A stretch of 64,000 nt of DNA. Source: Lepidurus packardi (taxonomy: Eukaryota; Arthropoda; Branchiopoda; Notostraca; Triopsidae). The notes under the pieces are model-generated. The model searched no databases and had not been told where the DNA came from. It was given only the letters and a program-made list of their open reading frames with translations. The translations under genes were made by a program, and so were the position numbers. The DNA lies in contig JAKZAN010000006.1 in assembly GCA_023053545.1 (NCBI GenBank), positions 8,071,851-8,135,850 of the forward strand, given 5' to 3'. Positions 20,583-44,644 of this stretch are shown in pieces. The number at the start of each line of letters is the position of its first letter. The stretch's first letter is position 1.

Positions 20583-23500
20583 CTACTTGGTTCTGTCCTG
20601 TAACACATCTCGTAGTATTGTTGGTGCATTCCTACTCGGAATCAGTTCCATTTCCAAGCTCGGCGCCATAGGATGCACCGAGGAATGTCCTGTATTGCTT
20701 TGTTGAACCTATCAAAAAAGTACCATTAATAAAAGATTAGAGTTAACGCATTGCCAACGTACTTCTTTTTGTAGCGTACTCGAAGCCATTTGCTCAGCCG
20801 GTAACTTCGGAGTAATCTGGGGTTGGGACTCGGCTTGCAAAAATCGGATAAATGCCTCCGACAAAGACTACACATAAATACAGACGATTAACGAAAAACA
20901 GTAGAACAGAAAAGAGTAAATACCTTTTCCAGATTTTCAGCCGAACTGTCTGTGGACTGCGACGGTTGACGAATTCTATTAGCAGCTCCACGCAATAGTG
21001 CCGCTCCCCAACCAAGGGTAGTCGCTGTACTCGCATCAGCTCCTGTTTTGGCCCGCTCTTCACCACTGAAGTCTAACACGGTGGCAATGATACGCAAAAC
21101 TTCGGTTCGCTTGGCCGGTGGTGCCATAAAATAGCCCACCACCAAGTTTTTTACCAAGAAACGATCCACTTTCCCACCTTGATTAGCGGAAAGATCATCC
21201 TTTTCTTTGCGCATCCGTTCCAGCTCCGATTCTTTCTGCTTAACTGTCACAAGAAAAAAAAAATAAAAAATGAAGGTTTTATTCTCTTTCCAACCAAAAT
21301 GGAGACCATGACTCGAGCTCCTGAAAAACATTTCAGGTTTCAAAAATAAGGACTATAAAGGGGAATTGGGCATACCACGAGGAGAGTGTTACAGAAGTAC
21401 TGGTATCGATAAGTCCAACCAGTACCTGATGTAATACTCACACCAAGGCAGCCATGCACATACAACATTCAGCAATCATTACTTAAAAATTATACTAGAT
21501 ACAACTAAACAAATCATGCTTCAGTTTGTCCGAGCTTATTAAAAGGCAATACAAGTTTAAGAGACATTATAAAAGTACTGTCAAAGTGCCTAGCTTAGAT
21601 TGTGAGCTTAGTTAATGAATCAGCCTCAGAAAAGGTTTACAGAAACAATTAGTAAATAGGTAAAGTTGAAAAGAAGGTTAGCGTAGCATTTTGGTAGCAT
21701 CCATCACATCTCACGTGACACTCCGAGAGACCGACACTCTCTCAGAGTTACCGCATGAGATTAAACGGACAGCAACCGGGGTTATTGGCTTACAGCCCAC
21801 AGAGTATTAATTTACGTACGGAACGCAAACGGTAATTCACATTTCTACGTCGAACCGTGCACGCCCGCATGTTCAAAGCACCAGAAAAAACGCGATATGT
21901 TCCCCAACGCCAAGAACACAAGCAGAAGCAAAAAAGTCCCTTTTACATGTGCTGATAACCCCAACTGATAACCAAACTTTTAAACAGCGAAAGCAAATGA
22001 AAGGGATCAGTCAAGAGCCTACACGACTGCAATGCGAAGTCATGCGAAACCAAAGTGCGTAACTTAAAAATAAGTACATTCAGTACAGCAAGGCGTGAAC
22101 TGAAAAGGTACAAGACCAAACTAAATATAACGATAATGGTTTCAAAAAATGAAACATGATGCGGTGCTAGGCGCCTGCAACTGTTGCATATCAACGGGTA
22201 GTCTGGGATGGGAACAGCCCAGAATTACCTGCTGATATTTAACAGTTACAGTCAAACCGAAAAATAGACGTGCAAAACATCCATTGTAGGCAAAACCCAA
22301 GTGAGAAGAAAAACAAAAAACGCGCCAAATGAAAAAGTCTGTATTATAGTTACCTTCCTCCCTCAAAGCTGATAACTGAGCAGACTTGGCATCAAACTGC
22401 TGTGTTAAGCGCGCAGCAGCTTCTAAGCCCACTTGGGCTTCTGAAAACTTGGCATGTAAGGCTTGGACTTCTTGTTTTAACTGATCTTCACGTTTTTCAA
22501 CTACAAACACCTTGCGTTTCCACTCCAGCGCAGCTGCATCCAGGTCTCGTTCCTTTTCTGTAGAAAGCCCAAAATGAATTACGACATTATCTTTTCATAA
22601 ACAATGCCCCTTTTCGTTTTGCTTTTACTTTAAATACCTTTTTGAAACTGTTCAAGCACCAACTGTAAGTTGGCAAGGCTCAGTACATGTTGACGAGTTT
22701 CTTCCTGTGCTTTTCTCCGGGACGCTTCTTCCTCGCTAATTTTCAACTTGAGCTGATGAACTTGCTCTTGGAGAGCGTCAGCTTGTAGAACAGCGCGTTG
22801 ACTGGCACCGCTAAGTGCTGTCTGTCGTTTCCTAAGCTGATCTTCAGCCTTGTCCAACTTCTGCTTTAATTCGGCAGTGCGTTGCTCAGTCTTCAATGCT
22901 TCGTGGGTGTAACTTTCCTCTACCGATACCAAATGCTCGGTAAGGCGCGTCACTTCCGTTTCTAACCGCTGCACCTTGCTGAAATTGGCCTCCAACTATA
23001 GAAAGAAGAACTTCAGTTTAAATCCGGGTGACATTCTTGACACCACTACCTCAATTTTTACCGTCTGAAGCTGATAACGTGCTTCCTCCAGCTCTTGCTC
23101 TGCTTTGGACCTTTCGCCTTCCAGCATAACGCTATGCTGCTGTAATGCGTCACATTTATCCTGGGTTTTAGTGAGCTGATCTTGCAGTGCCATAACTTAA
23201 AAAAATCTCCCATAAGCCTGCTATTCGCTAAAGTCTTAATAAAAAACATACCCGTATCCCCGTCAGTTTGCTTTTCTTGCATAAGAGCCATCAAACGTTG
23301 CACTTCGGCATGATAAGTCAAAGATTCCTGGTGCTTTTGTTGCACCGCGGTGACTAACTGTTCCCTATCGCTCTGGAATTCTTGTAAGGAGGCTAGAAGG
23401 TGATCTTTTTCCTGACGCAAACGGACAAGTTCTTCTATGGAGGCGCTTAAATGCGTTCTTACATCTTCGGCTTCAATACGTTCCTGGTCAAGCTTAGCTT

Positions 23501-26500
23501 CTATTTGTAGACAACGTTCAAGGAGCGAATCTCTTTCTTTCAGAGCACTTTCCAAACCTTGTTGCATTTCGACTCGACTGGTCTGCAATTTTTCTCGCAA
23601 TTTGCTCACTTCATTTTCCAACTGCTCTGTTGCCTTTGCATCAAGTGTGGTCTGAGTGAGTGTTTTGACCTCTGACTTCAATTCGGAACATACGTGCAGA
23701 CCCTGGACCAACTCTTCCTGCAATTTTTCCTTCTCAGCTGTTAACGTGGTTTGGGCTGTGTTGGCAATTTCGATTTGTTTCATCAGCTCGCCACGTTGAT
23801 TCTGCAAGGTAGTAATACATTCTTCCAACTCTTGCTTGGTTGCTTGGAGCTTCGAATACTCTCGAACAATTTCGGAATTCTCCTTCCCCAGAGTTTCGCT
23901 CCTCTTCGATTCCTCCACCACCAGAAGGCTAAGGTTTTGTATACTTTCTTCTTGCCTCTTACAAACAGTTTCGCAAGCTTGCCATTTGGACCGGAACTCA
24001 GTCACCTCAGCTTCCAAGCCCTGCAACGCTCGAGTTTCCGACAACTTTTGTACTTCGAGTGCTAACTCGGATGAATGTTTTGACTTCTTGACCAACTCTT
24101 CGCGAAGGCTATGGTATTCCATTTGCATGGTTGCGTAAGACAAATTGCTGGACTCGATCTGTTGAATAAGCTCTGCGTGTCGATTTTGCCAGCTCGTTAG
24201 TTGCTCTTCTACGTGAAGCTTGCTAGATCGAAGCGTTTCTAGTTGCTGGATCAGTTTTGCATGAGCCTTCTCTACATTTCTAGTTCGACTTTCCTCATCG
24301 GCGGATTGAGACCTGGTAGTCAATAACCGCAGTTCCAATTCATGAATGACGCAATCTTTTTCAGCCAGTTGGTGCATCAAATCTTCCTGGGATTTTTCCT
24401 TGTTCGATAATGCAGCTACAGAACAGGCCAATTTCAGCGATGTCTCTTCTACCGTTTGCAACTTGGTTTCAACTCCATCCAATAGGACTTTAGCCTGGTT
24501 CAACTCTTCTCGTAAGGTCTCCACGGCTTCTTGTTTGCGTTTAATTTCTCTTTCTCTGTCCCAAAGCTGTTCTTCCAAGCTTTCAATTTTCCTTTCTAGC
24601 TGCGATACCAAATCTACTTTATCAGCTTCATCCTCTTGTGAAATGGGCGGTGCCGAAAGATCGTTCAGGGTTCGCAACAATAGCTGCTGTGGCGTAGCTG
24701 GGGCTGTGACGTCATCGACCTCTTCAAGCTCTTCGTAGATCGGCTCCAATTCGGAAGTCGTCTGCGTTGAGACTAGATTTCGCGCTGTAAACTCATTTAA
24801 CAGTCTTTGCAGTTTTTCTTTAGTTTCAGAGCATTCATTTTCAACTTCGGCTTTATCGCTGAGACACTCATCGAGCTGGACCTGCAACTTGGCTTCACGT
24901 TGTTTCAAATCTCGGTGAGTCTTCAAAATAGACCGAAGCCAATTTAAGACATTCTCTGTGTTGCCAAAATCGAAAAGCGACTCCGACTCTTCCACGCTAT
25001 TCAACAATTGCCAGACGGAATGCCTCTCGTCGTTCCATTGTTGCAATTCGTTTTGTTTCGTTCGACTTACATCATCCAAGCTTTTGTTTAGTTCTTCAAT
25101 CTGCTTTTCGGCTTGTTCAAGTTTAGTTGAACTGGCCTCCAACGATTGGATAAGAACCATCTTTTCGGCTGTCCAAGCGGCTTGTTCTTTGGACAAGGCT
25201 TGGTCAAAGGCTCGCTGAGTTTTCTCCAACTCTTGGCTGATCGAAACCCTTGATTGGCTTAGCAAACGATCCATGTCCTCCTCCAATCGTTGATTTTCTT
25301 CCAACGCATGTTTCAATTTGTCTTGCATGTCGCTATTGAGGTCCGACTTGGACAGCAACACTGACAGTTGTGATTGCAGCTCATGGACTTGTTGCTGCAG
25401 AAGGGTTCGGCTCTTCAAAGCTTCTTCTATGGCTAGTTGATGCTGTTGATCTAACTCGTCCAAGCTGGTCATCAAGTTATCACGCTCGGTCGTCGCAATT
25501 TTCAACAAATCCTGAATCTTTTCAAGCTCTTCCTGCAAGTCGGTCACCTAGATGAGAAATATTCGTTGCAATACTTAAAAAAAAGATAAATCAGCCCGTT
25601 TCGTTTGACATAAGGCTTTAACATTTGCTAACCAAGTGATAAGGACAAATACCACCCACAATTGAAGCTTTATCACCCGCCAAATATATTAATGAGGGGT
25701 AAAATCTTTCCAATCTCCCCCTGTTTGGCGCCCGCAGCTAATAACTTCTAATCTTATCAGCACAGACGTGTTTCCTAACTGATAAATGTAACCCGAACAG
25801 GGTTCAGGCCTTGCATATGGTTCTATTGAACGTTACCTTCTACTAGAGCATACCACAAGGTTGTAGCCAATTTGGCACCGACGAAGACAACGGTTACAAA
25901 AAGCCTACATTATCCATATGGTTCTCTTGTGACTTTAAAAGGTAGGCAGACGGCCTCTATGAAGCCAATTTTATGATACTGATAAGGTAAAAGTGAAGTT
26001 TAGGTACACAGGAGCTCTCCCCATCTGGGCAAAACTGCTTCGAAGCGGAGAGCTTTATCGCACAAGAGCTTTTCTAGTTCCAGGATGAGAATTCTAGTAC
26101 TATCTAAATCTATCCAGTGGGTCGTTCCGTTAACGTGACTTTTAATGCCCTCGCCGGATTAGCTTTATCAATGGCATGACAACCTCTCATTACAGAGTCA
26201 GACAGTCCATTAACCGATCATTTGTGTTCGGAGCTGTTCTTTTTACTTGATGCTTATGGTGGACCTTCATTAGCGAAGAAGCCGTGTTCTCGGCAGCGGA
26301 AACCGGAACAGATACTGAAGCCGCAAGAGTCTGATCCTTTTCCGTTAGCAGTAAAGGTCCTGGAAACAAAAGGGCATATCAGTAAATCTTGCTTTGTGTT
26401 ATTCTTTTCTTTTTCTCCGGAGGGGGGAGGGGGAACATGGGGCGTAGAAGGTAAAGTAAAGCTAACAACTTACCCCATTGTGGCGGCAAATGAAGGTCTA

Positions 26501-40475: not shown

Positions 40476-43400
40476 TCAGTGCCATTTTGATTTCTGGGCG
40501 AAAATGTCGGCGCGCAAGTTCTGAGCGAAGCAGATACCCAATATCTGAAAGACATAAAGGACAGTAAGTATTCTAAAACAAAAACAAGGGCTGGGAAACT
40601 CGGAGAACTATCATAACATGTACGGGATTGGACTTTACGTAATTTTTTTTCGTTGCATGAACAACTAAGTTAAGTACATGTATCTTAATTCCGTTATCGA
40701 AACGAAAAAACAAATAAACAACAAACTCAAATTAGGTACGTATAAAGTTAATATTGTGCTGTGAAACCCGAGAAATTAAATGCTCCTAATCCAATAAAAA
40801 GTTAATCTTACGTAGAGCGAAAAAGCAAAAAAACAAACAAAAATTCCGATCAAACGTTATTTCTCTCTGCTTGAACATAAACTTCTCTTTCCCAAGTCAA
40901 CAATCTCTTCCCCACTATTTTTTTTGTCATTAAAGCTTTATCGGAGTTTTCATGTTTGCCCATAAAGTACAACGGTTCAATAACGAAAAATTGCACTCAG
41001 TAAAATTAATCGAAATTCTTAACATCGTTCTATTAACCCAAGATATTATATATTAACATTAGTTTATTATATCGAATTAGTAACCAATATTTCATTTTAT
41101 ATATTAATCGAAAGCAAATCCTAAACATACAATACCACATAATGCCCTAAATTGTGGGCTCATTAATAGGGTATCCGTCAAGAACCAACCTGTAAGAACG
41201 CTACCGCTACTGCGACGCCGGCAACAACTAGCAAATTTCTTTCTAGCCACTCCTCTCCGGACTGTAGGCAGCCCTTATCGTGTACTATCTTGCCCAGATC
41301 ATGAATCTATGGAGGATTTAACTCGGACTCAAAAGAAACATTCGGATCCGGAGTCACTTTCAGAACCCTTTGAAAACACTAGGAAATGCAGCCTAAACCC
41401 TAAAATCGCCACCGTGATAGCCTTAAATAAAAGATGGCGTGCTTCCCCCAATCACCCGCGTTCCTGCCCTAAACACCACATCACCTTGGCAATTACCTGT
41501 AATATAGCCACACCAACAGCCGCTCCAGCTACAGGTACGAGATTAACCTCCACCCACTCTTCTCCGGCACGTAAACACCCCCGCTCGTAAACCACGGACC
41601 CACGATCACCGTTCTTCTCATGGCAGTAAAGAGTGGAAGGAAGCTCAATTAGTGAAAGTTGATTTGCCATCGCAAAGGGGAAAAAATGAAGCGAAGAAAA
41701 TCGCCAATATCTGCAGGCGTATGTGAAACTGATATTAAGCAAAGCATGCTGCAAAGCAAGCATCAAAGCAGGACAGCAAGTCTACGGAAATTTCTACTTA
41801 CGTAATCCGATTTTCGGACGTCATATCCGCACTGCTTGTTCATAATAATTTCCTTAATAAAATTTCAGAAATATAAAAACAGTAAATCCAACCCCTACGG
41901 AAAAAAAATTTACGCAACCTACATTTGGTTGAGGCTTGCAGCAGGAAAACGGGACTCCGCATGCCTCTCGGCTACCCACTTCCGCCGAGGAACAATTGAA
42001 ATAAACGTTACGATCCCAGTCTTTGGGACCCTCGATGCCACAGCACTGCAACTGCAAAAATCAATACCCAAATTACGTCTTAAAATGTGTGCTAACAAGT
42101 GTAGCTGGGCTTACCCATCCTTCTTGTATCCAGTCGATCAAGTTTTGTTGGTCAGGATCATCACGATAGTGTACGATAAAGGCCTGGAATCCATTCGTGG
42201 CTTGGGATTTGATCTAAGAGCGAACACTTGAGTAACAATTAACTTGCTAGCTAAAATCTATACCCAATCTTTAAAAACAAATCCCAGAATCCCAGCCGTC
42301 ATTTCCAAGAGTAGCAAAATGGCAAGAAAAATTGCATACTAAAAAGAATCACGAGGTAAAAAAAGCCATTAGTCAACTGAACCTAGGGAAACTTATCCCT
42401 AATAAGCTTTTCAATGAAAGTTACCGTGGCTAATAAACATGTGTTTTCTCTCAAGGCTCCAACACAACCAGTAAATCCAATAATGAAAGTCACGCAACCT
42501 GTAAGAAAAGTATCAGTTTCCTAAATTTATTCAGCAAAATTTTACGAATCTAGTTACCTGCGAGGATAAGAATGAATGCGGGGTCCAATGCCACATTAGT
42601 TAAACGACTCAAATTACTAAACGTATCCTTTTCTGTCCAAGCCCACATCCCAATGGCCATAATGCTCAACCCCATGAGCTACATATATAAAGGAAATTAA
42701 AGGTATTAATTAAGTGTATGACTAGCTTTCCGCATGCAAATTCGACACATCTGGAGCGTCTCTCAGTGAATGCTCAATGTCCTTGTGCTTTATTCATTTT
42801 GTACGACAGCAACTCCCAATCCACTTTCTCGTATCCCCGATCGATTAGTCGACGTTGCAACGAACAAGGCTAACAATAAAGACGAAAAGTCACAACGAAC
42901 ATTTCTTCATTACTAAAAATTATACGCAATATTGTCGTGTTCTTTTTCCCTGTAGTAATTTTCCGCAGGAAAATTAGCTAAATGATATATCCCCGCGCTC
43001 TTCTTCATTTCAGCTAAAGTTCAACGTCTCAAAAGAACTACCAACTTATAGCGAACATACGCCATTTTATAACGAGCTGACATGTCCAATGTCAGGAATA
43101 GAACTTTTACTCTGATCCTTACCTTCCGATATTTTCTCTACTGTTTACTACTACTATATTCTTACTATTATATACTTATTACTTTATTCTTAGCCTGTAG
43201 AACATCTCACCAATAATGGACAATATAAATATAAAGAAACAATGAAAACAAAACCTGAATTACAAAGCAAATCGGAAACAACCTGAAGTGTCAATCAATG
43301 CAAGTTAAATACGAAACAATAGGCTAAAAGTAATGTAAGAAGCAAAGAAATTATCCAAACCACAGAATCCCTGTACTCTACAAAACGTACTCGGTACAAG

Positions 43401-43703: not shown

Positions 43704-44644
43704 CGCAATAAAAGAAGCTCTAGCGCGACTAAAATCAAGCTATGTCAAACTGCATAGGAGGATCGTTCTTGTTCCTTCGATGGACGATTTTTTGATAATG
43801 ACTCGAGGAAGCGAATCGGGGAAAAAAAAGGCAACAACGACGTCTACGGGTCAAAGTCCGGCTAGATAATCTATAATTTCCTTTTCTGTTCTGGAGAGAA
43901 GGCGAAGAGGGGGGAGACGGTCAGACTTTAATAAGATGTGACTCAGGATTAGACAAATCCATCGAGGTTATTCCTCCGAAAACATGCGAGTACGTGCATG
44001 CGGTATGCTCGGTTCGGAGGCGCAGGTATGAAGTGATTGGCAAGTTTACCATGTGTAAAATAAAAATAAAGAAAGCAAGTTGGCATGATAATACAGAAAC
44101 ATTAGACAAAGAGGATTTGTCATATGACGCTTCGAATCCTAATCGAGGTGAGCTAGCTTAGCTTACTTCTTCAGAAAACTTTAAGTTATCAACGAGAACA
44201 GCCATCGCCGTCCAACACAATAACGCAACGTACTTTCTTTTCCTTGGTTCTGCTTCACCAAGGTTAGATGACTCAGGGGGGTGGGTGTTTTCTACCCACA
44301 TTTATATGACTGAATAACGAATCTAACAACAATATTGCGTACAATTCTTAGTTCAAGTCTTCTGTTTTGAGAAAATAAATACAAATAAAGCAACAACTTA
44401 GAGATCGTGAATATCAACTGGAACACGTTCAACTTCCTGAGAAGGGCAAAATTCGCTGTTTCGCTAAAATCCCTTGCAAGGGAACTACTTTATACGGTAA
44501 AAGAGCTAGCTAGATTTGATTGAAGGTCATTGCGTGGGGAGATGGGGAATAACTTACCCAAAAGATTACGTTAAATCCAAAGATGACATACTTCAGGCAG
44601 CACGAAACCTCACTTTGATCACGCCGATATTTCCTGGTGGGCAT
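40476..44644 (-). CDS. C8-type tetraspanin (TSPAN5/14/17 group) with two alternative penultimate exons
   Basis: Exons in transcript order 44558-44644, 42558-42678, 42425-42498, 42264-42338, 42115-42213, 41923-42051, 41802-41852, then either 41497-41613 or 41190-41306, then 40476-40544; 273 residues with either choice. TM1 starts in SCCLKYVIFGFNVIFW, TM2 contains GFTGCVGALREN, and TM3 ends FVFKDW. The large loop has LQCCGIEG, YFNCS, EACGVPFSCC, CGYD and a GCL, giving the eight cysteines of the TspanC8 group. TM4 is followed by GICFAQNLRADI. Family knowledge: TspanC8 proteins escort the protease ADAM10 out of the ER and steer which substrates (such as Notch) it cuts. Start at 44644 follows from the PTRKYRRDQSEVSCC leader typical of the group. 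The first intron is 1.9 kb; the rest are short. Confidence 0.93.
41190..41306 (-). other. Tetraspanin alternative exon B (distal)
   Basis: 117 bp, phase 0 at both ends, aligned to exon A over its whole coding length (IVHDKGCLQSGEEWLERN, then the TM4 helix). Acceptor CCATAG, donor CAG|GTTGGT (weaker than that of exon A). Lies 190 bp downstream of exon A. Confidence 0.8.
41497..41613 (-). other. Tetraspanin alternative exon A (proximal)
   Basis: 117 bp, phase 0 at both ends, encoding the last part of the large loop and most of TM4 (VVYERGCLRAGEEWVEVN, then a Val/Ala/Gly-rich helix). Donor CAG|GTAATT. The acceptor I chose (ending GAGAAG) gives the same length as exon B; an acceptor further upstream is possible. 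Confidence 0.75.

Follow-up and report, generated by a model that had tools for sequence, protein, structure and literature searches.

Can one tetraspanin gene supply two versions of its fourth transmembrane segment (TM4), and with them two ways of handling ADAM10? The question is raised by a gene of the TspanC8 type in the notostracan Lepidurus packardi (GCA_023053545.1, contig JAKZAN010000006.1), located on the minus strand of a 64,000-nucleotide window (contig positions 8,071,851 to 8,135,850). Unless stated otherwise, coordinates refer to this window. A preliminary description, made from the letters of the window, had proposed that two adjacent exons, here called A and B, are alternatives to each other. 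Judging from the genomic sequence, the gene probably makes two proteins by choosing A or B, and we consider it likely that an old tandem duplicate of the penultimate coding exon has been kept as an alternative pair. In the proposed mechanism, the splicing machinery would connect exon E7 with the terminal exon L through either A or B, such that a transcript carries one of the two and not both. The resulting 273-amino-acid (aa) isoforms would differ at 17 of the 39 residues of the swapped exon. The choice would be made by a trans-acting factor, possibly via a UGC-rich stretch upstream of A, and the two isoforms may differ in holding or trafficking ADAM10.

The exon pair and its protein

The gene model comprises ten coding exons between 44644 and 40476, with GT-AG introns that are in phase 0 throughout, the E2-E3 intron being the sole exception. 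Exons A and B are located between E7 and L. As the preliminary description had it, both are 117 bp long and in phase 0 on both sides. Both are stop-free; each follows an ag acceptor and ends in CAG before a gt donor. They have in common the pattern GC-L..GEEW and a hydrophobic TM4 (hydropathy 2.28 in A and 2.68 in B), and agree in 22 of their 39 amino acids and in 69 of their 117 nucleotides, in line with the earlier claim that they are homologous versions of the loop end with its eighth cysteine and of TM4. When the isoform-B protein was compared in six frames with the whole 108.6-Mb assembly (344 contigs), exon A was recovered at E = 6.3e-8 with 55% identity (C5:8113338-8113457, window 41488-41607), so the likeness of the two is not a chance one. 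The residue differences comprise eight of the 12 positions before cysteine 8, four of the next 12, which we take to be about loop helix E, and five of the 15 TM4 residues encoded in the exon. The 12 positions that precede cysteine 8 form the end of the variable loop region.

The differences between A and B are distributed unevenly over the codon, with 13, 10 and 25 at the first, second and third positions, respectively. Thus 25 of 39 third positions differ, compared with 23 of 78 first and second positions (Fisher p = 0.0006). The NG86 method gave a nonsynonymous divergence (dN) of 0.357 and an undefined synonymous divergence (dS), which is read as saturation. We simulated 48 random changes placed on A or on B: at least 22 identical residues were retained in 0 of 20000 trials each, and at least 25 third-position changes arose in 0.035% and 0.055% of trials. 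Since the simulation rarely or never reproduced the codon-position bias and the amino acid identity, we conclude that the duplication is old and that purifying selection has acted on the pair as a whole ever since. Selection on the pair is compatible with only one copy being constrained today; the near-equal Pfam scores given below argue against decay of either. The absence of stops is weak evidence alone: of the randomly changed sequences, 23% still had none when fully diverged, and 40-41% when half diverged.

A recent origin of the pair was considered and rejected. Duplication in the assembly is countered by the 59% nucleotide identity, and the DNA of the region matched the genome only once, at the region itself. 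As to recent segmental duplication, intron A-B aligns with intron E7-A by one 10-nt word only, with a score reached in 12 of 200 shuffles. Further copies of A, B or L were not found in 44600-40300 once these three exons were masked: the top two scores of each query in each frame were between 20 and 27, compared with 122 for A against B.

Both isoforms belong to the tetraspanins, with scores for the Pfam Tetraspanin domain (PF00335) of 186.8 bits with A and 186.3 bits with B (cut-off 32.1). The large loop, read from the translation, has eight cysteines: CC, C, C and CC in E6, C in E7, and GC in A or B. The gene is by these features a TspanC8-type tetraspanin, and the preliminary assignment is upheld. 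Among solved structures, both isoforms come closest to Tspan15 (chain 8esv_B; E = 8.7e-41 for isoform A, 1.5e-39 for isoform B), and A is also ahead of B against the loop structures of Tspan15 and Tspan10 (7rd5, 9hv7). In anchored comparisons with the Tspan15 segment and the segment of a paralogue on contig C4, A has 12 and 12 identities, and B has 7 and 13. The gene is presumably closer to human TSPAN5, TSPAN14 and TSPAN17 than to TSPAN15.

Probable exclusive use and its alternatives

All combinations of the two exons are in frame: A only or B only gives 273 aa, neither gives 234 aa, and both give a product of 312 aa with two TM4 segments. That joint use would duplicate TM4, as the preliminary description had pointed out, supports exclusive use. 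Mutually exclusive exons have three published predictors (PMC3228551): the same length, splice sites and reading frame that are compatible, and sequence homology. A and B show all three, as neighbouring internal exons of 117 and 117 bp, with GT-AG sites in phase 0/0, and homologous. In the same source, only 90 of 16180 exons annotated as constitutive or differentially included on the fly X chromosome, counted per transcript, have these properties, in 6 of 1705 genes. The three introns flanking the pair measure 188, 190 and 645 nt, compared with 50-86 nt for the five other introns after intron 1, a soft sign in favour of alternative exons. Taken on this genomic evidence, mutually exclusive splicing is the best reading of the pair.

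Several points weigh against it. Exclusive use is a prediction from genomic sequence, and the intron lengthening is a soft sign only. Among the internal exclusive exons predicted on the fly X, only 26 of 65 were already annotated (PMC3228551). Neither skipping of both exons nor use of both would break the reading frame, and such splicing errors would for that reason escape nonsense-mediated decay. A scan of one viral-contig collection for orthologous contigs returned three pattern matches, none a relative, and the intron-pairing and branch-point tests described below found no structural or steric device for exclusivity. Finally, B surpasses A against Tspan7 (3.6e-29 vs 2.1e-27) and CD53 (2.2e-26 vs 4.6e-25).

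The last point would also suit an explanation in which one copy is a fading relic of the duplication, rarely or never spliced in. Either could be the weaker copy: A for its NAGNAG acceptor, its lower TM4 hydropathy and its lower scores against those two proteins, B for the upstream AGs at -23 and -17 and its 7 rather than 12 residues in common with the Tspan15 segment. We nevertheless hold a relic to be unlikely. The third-position bias speaks against it, as does an amino acid identity far above that expected if a single copy, free of constraint, had taken up all 48 changes; a relic relaxed only recently would be compatible with this model. Moreover, A equals B against Pfam and exceeds it against Tspan15, and both copies are stop-free, a weak point alone. 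A different objection is that the exons could be used like cassettes, without strict exclusion, so that the 312-aa form with both or the 234-aa form with neither (a form without TM4) would be made as well. The preserved frame of every combination and the lack of an enforcing device in the two intron tests agree with this, and human non-conventional tetraspanins that arise by exon skipping have been catalogued (PMC6773723). Equal length combined with homology is, however, rare among non-exclusive neighbours (PMC3228551), and a second TM4 in the protein would probably upset its topology; we therefore find cassette use quite improbable. Highly improbable is an alternative 3' end, in which the donor of A is skipped and the frame continues for 14 intron codons (VIAKVMWCLGQERG) to a stop. 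The frame is indeed open from 41781 to 41452, but A retains a CAG/gtaatt donor and a length identical to that of B, and neither AATAAA nor ATTAAA was found in intron A-B, a weak test since none occurs in the 1576 nt after L either. Mutually exclusive splicing remains the explanation that we prefer.

Exon L itself aside, no stretch of the window on either strand resembles the 24 nt with the acceptor and first codons of L as closely as L', in intron E7-A (20/24, the next best being 17/24). Read after E7, it stays in frame for 21 codons and then meets a TGA. L' was not adopted as a functional terminal exon: the similarity is limited to 24 nt (34/89 over a longer stretch), and joining E7 to L' would lose cysteine 8 and TM4. 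On the plus strand, a 160-aa antisense open frame (41108-41587) spans exons A and B and is probably a by-product of exon composition.

Table 1. Exons, introns and candidate elements of the tetraspanin gene, in window coordinates
Feature	Position	Strand	Basis or detail
E1, start codon and part of TM1	44558..44644	-	gene model, GT donor
E2	42558..42678	-	gene model, GT-AG
E3	42425..42498	-	gene model
E4	42264..42338	-	gene model
E5, large loop begins	42115..42213	-	gene model
E6, CCG motif and loop cysteines 1-6	41923..42051	-	gene model
E7, loop cysteine 7 (QCGYD)	41802..41852	-	gene model
Intron E7-A, 188 nt; NAGNAG acceptor (GAGAAG); branch-point match (CTAAT) that begins 39 nt ahead of exon A	41614..41801	-	
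UGC cluster in intron E7-A, possible regulator site	41733..41778	-	7 TGC in 46 nt
L', possible relic or cryptic terminal exon	41690..41713	-	20/24 match to exon L acceptor and first codons
Exon A, loop end, eighth cysteine and most of TM4	41497..41613	-	
Intron A-B, 190 nt	41307..41496	-	
Exon B, loop end, eighth cysteine and most of TM4	41190..41306	-	
L, terminal coding exon, TM4 end, C-terminal tail and stop	40476..40544	-	gene model

The tetraspanin gene is flanked by two domains encoded on the plus strand. A protein kinase domain exon (PF00069, PF07714; 38360-39046), which presumably resembles a TGF-beta type I receptor, is convergent with it, and a RINGv domain (PF12906; 45684-46037), which we take to be of the MARCH type, lies upstream. 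Farther off, an 829-aa open frame on the minus strand (23061-25547) gave no Pfam match at E 0.001. Ten contig ends were also examined. The end of C3 (L034) finishes in a clean array of TTAGG, a repeat that fits an arthropod; the right-hand end of C4 (L036, C4:13488637-13491636) has interrupted CCTAA arrays, in the orientation opposite to that expected of a telomere; seven ends have neither array, and one (L027) read N.

Candidate control of the exon choice

The preliminary description had suggested looking for complementary intronic sequences. Dscam-type docking and selector pairing was not found above shuffles, the duplex energies of the intron pairs I1-I2, I1-I3 and I2-I3 being equalled or beaten by 41, 40 and 34 of 60 dinucleotide shuffles, in a test with low power as it uses one sequence. 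In the steric mechanism described for OGDH, the branch point is no more than about 50 nt away from the 5' splice site upstream of it and is followed by a long AG-free zone (PMC7969005). No distant branch point was found near the donor of A: intron A-B contains 13 AGs including the acceptor, no CTRAY and no AG gap longer than 29 nt. Because of the many AGs and the lack of CTRAY, a steric mechanism for A and B is unlikely. In the acceptor region of exon B (41307-41329, minus strand), splicing at the AG at -23 or at that at -17 would place a TAG in frame shortly ahead of the exon.

A regulatory lead is offered by the UGC cluster upstream of A. UGC and YGCY are sites of SRRM4 and other proteins with the enhancer of microexons (eMIC) domain, and of muscleblind proteins. 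No other cluster of the window, on this strand or the other, is as dense, the next separate one having 5 TGC, and its density was reached in 5 of 2000 intron shuffles and 0 of 60 whole-strand shuffles. The total of TGC in intron E7-A is in modest excess (10, compared with a shuffle mean of 7.8). The cis-code described for eMIC exons in the fly (PMC8797185) includes a strong branch point and a long AG exclusion zone, together with a 3' splice site region that is weak and has UGC close by. Exon A has a UGC 12 nt before its acceptor, the CTAAT at -39 and the NAGNAG acceptor, yet there are AGs at -32 and -5. These AGs count against eMIC control of A, as does the distance of the dense cluster from the acceptor (>100 nt); furthermore, the eMIC exons described in the fly are short (PMC8797185). 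A search of the genome for SRRM_C (PF15230) gave no match, and is uninformative since no control matched either.

Relatives, ADAM10 and known systems

Comparison of the isoform-B protein with the genome gave 19 exon-level matches, ten in the gene itself and nine elsewhere. Nearest to it elsewhere in the genome is another TspanC8 gene (L021, C4:13439201-13440367), in which the counterparts of E7 and of A/B form one exon. It retains the intron position between LQ and IL, and one TM4 exon was found in it. Three more loci (L017, L022, L023) have one TM4 exon each; L016 was aligned and left out of the scan for a second one. At a further locus (L024, C3:6622501-6632400), there are three TM4-like stretches, each among its own upstream tetraspanin exons, which is consistent with a cluster of about three tandem tetraspanin genes and with duplication of whole genes rather than of an exon.

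ADAM10 is regarded as several scissors, depending on which TspanC8 accompanies it (PMC8268256). In Tspan14 chimeras, the large loop was necessary and sufficient for ADAM10 binding, and its variable region was necessary and not sufficient (PMC4751363). Because loop and variable region govern binding in Tspan14, it is plausible that swapping A for B would change the handling of ADAM10. ADAM10-type domains are present in the genome: the profile ADAM10_Cys-rich (PF21299) matches contig C6 twice, with scores of 71 and 36.6 bits (cut-off 28). What the exon choice does to ADAM10 is a consequence that we infer. A broader proposal is at present doubtful: that a conserved arthropod TspanC8 splice switch alters the loop end and TM4, under a factor of nerve or muscle that recognises the UGC-rich intron upstream, and so yields a pair of ADAM10 complexes that differ in their substrates, for instance Notch. 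If true, species with few TspanC8 genes would enlarge their stock of scissors through splicing instead of gene duplication. An exchange that affects the loop end and TM4 alone, with the rest identical, would also be a natural domain-swap experiment on which part sets substrate choice, provided that it occurs.

The preliminary description knew of no such exon choice in TspanC8 genes. For the TM4 pair this held: no report of mutually exclusive TM4 exons in a TspanC8 was found in the open-access literature, judged mostly by title and the start of the abstract, with subscription papers and gene databases outside this scope. A term search of Schistosoma and Echinococcus splicing papers found no tetraspanin exon pair, and one validated tetraspanin exon-skip event is described in Echinococcus. 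Annotated isoforms of the gene may well exist in public gene sets. Drosophila Tsp26A, which we take to be an insect TspanC8 with the gene number CG9093, qualifies the wider claim; no open-access paper was found under that number. On this assumption, splicing control of insect TspanC8 genes is not wholly unknown, because Tsp26A is among the Notch-pathway genes alternatively spliced in eMIC-minus (Srrm234) brains (PMC8797185). In a human catalogue (PMC6773723), TSPAN5 has no further splice isoform, and TSPAN10, TSPAN14, TSPAN15 and TSPAN17 have exon deletions or alternative splice sites and no exon swap in the rows compared, which do not include TSPAN33.

In its protein, the gene resembles the TspanC8 tetraspanins (TSPAN5, 10, 14, 15, 17 and 33), with eight loop cysteines, the CCG and PxSCC motifs, and as its best solved match Tspan15, an ADAM10 partner. 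In its exons, it differs from Mhc, Dscam1, nAChR alpha6 and OGDH in that only two copies were found and their exclusive use is predicted from sequence. It further differs from Dscam1 in that paired intronic selector and docking sequences do not rise above shuffles, and from OGDH in lacking a long AG-free zone for a distant branch point (PMC7969005). In conclusion, this kind of exon duplication is already known, its TspanC8 member appears unreported in the literature searched, and the closest known kind is that of the mutually exclusive, tandem-duplicated exons of arthropod Mhc, Dscam1 and nAChR alpha6, and of OGDH (4a/4b).
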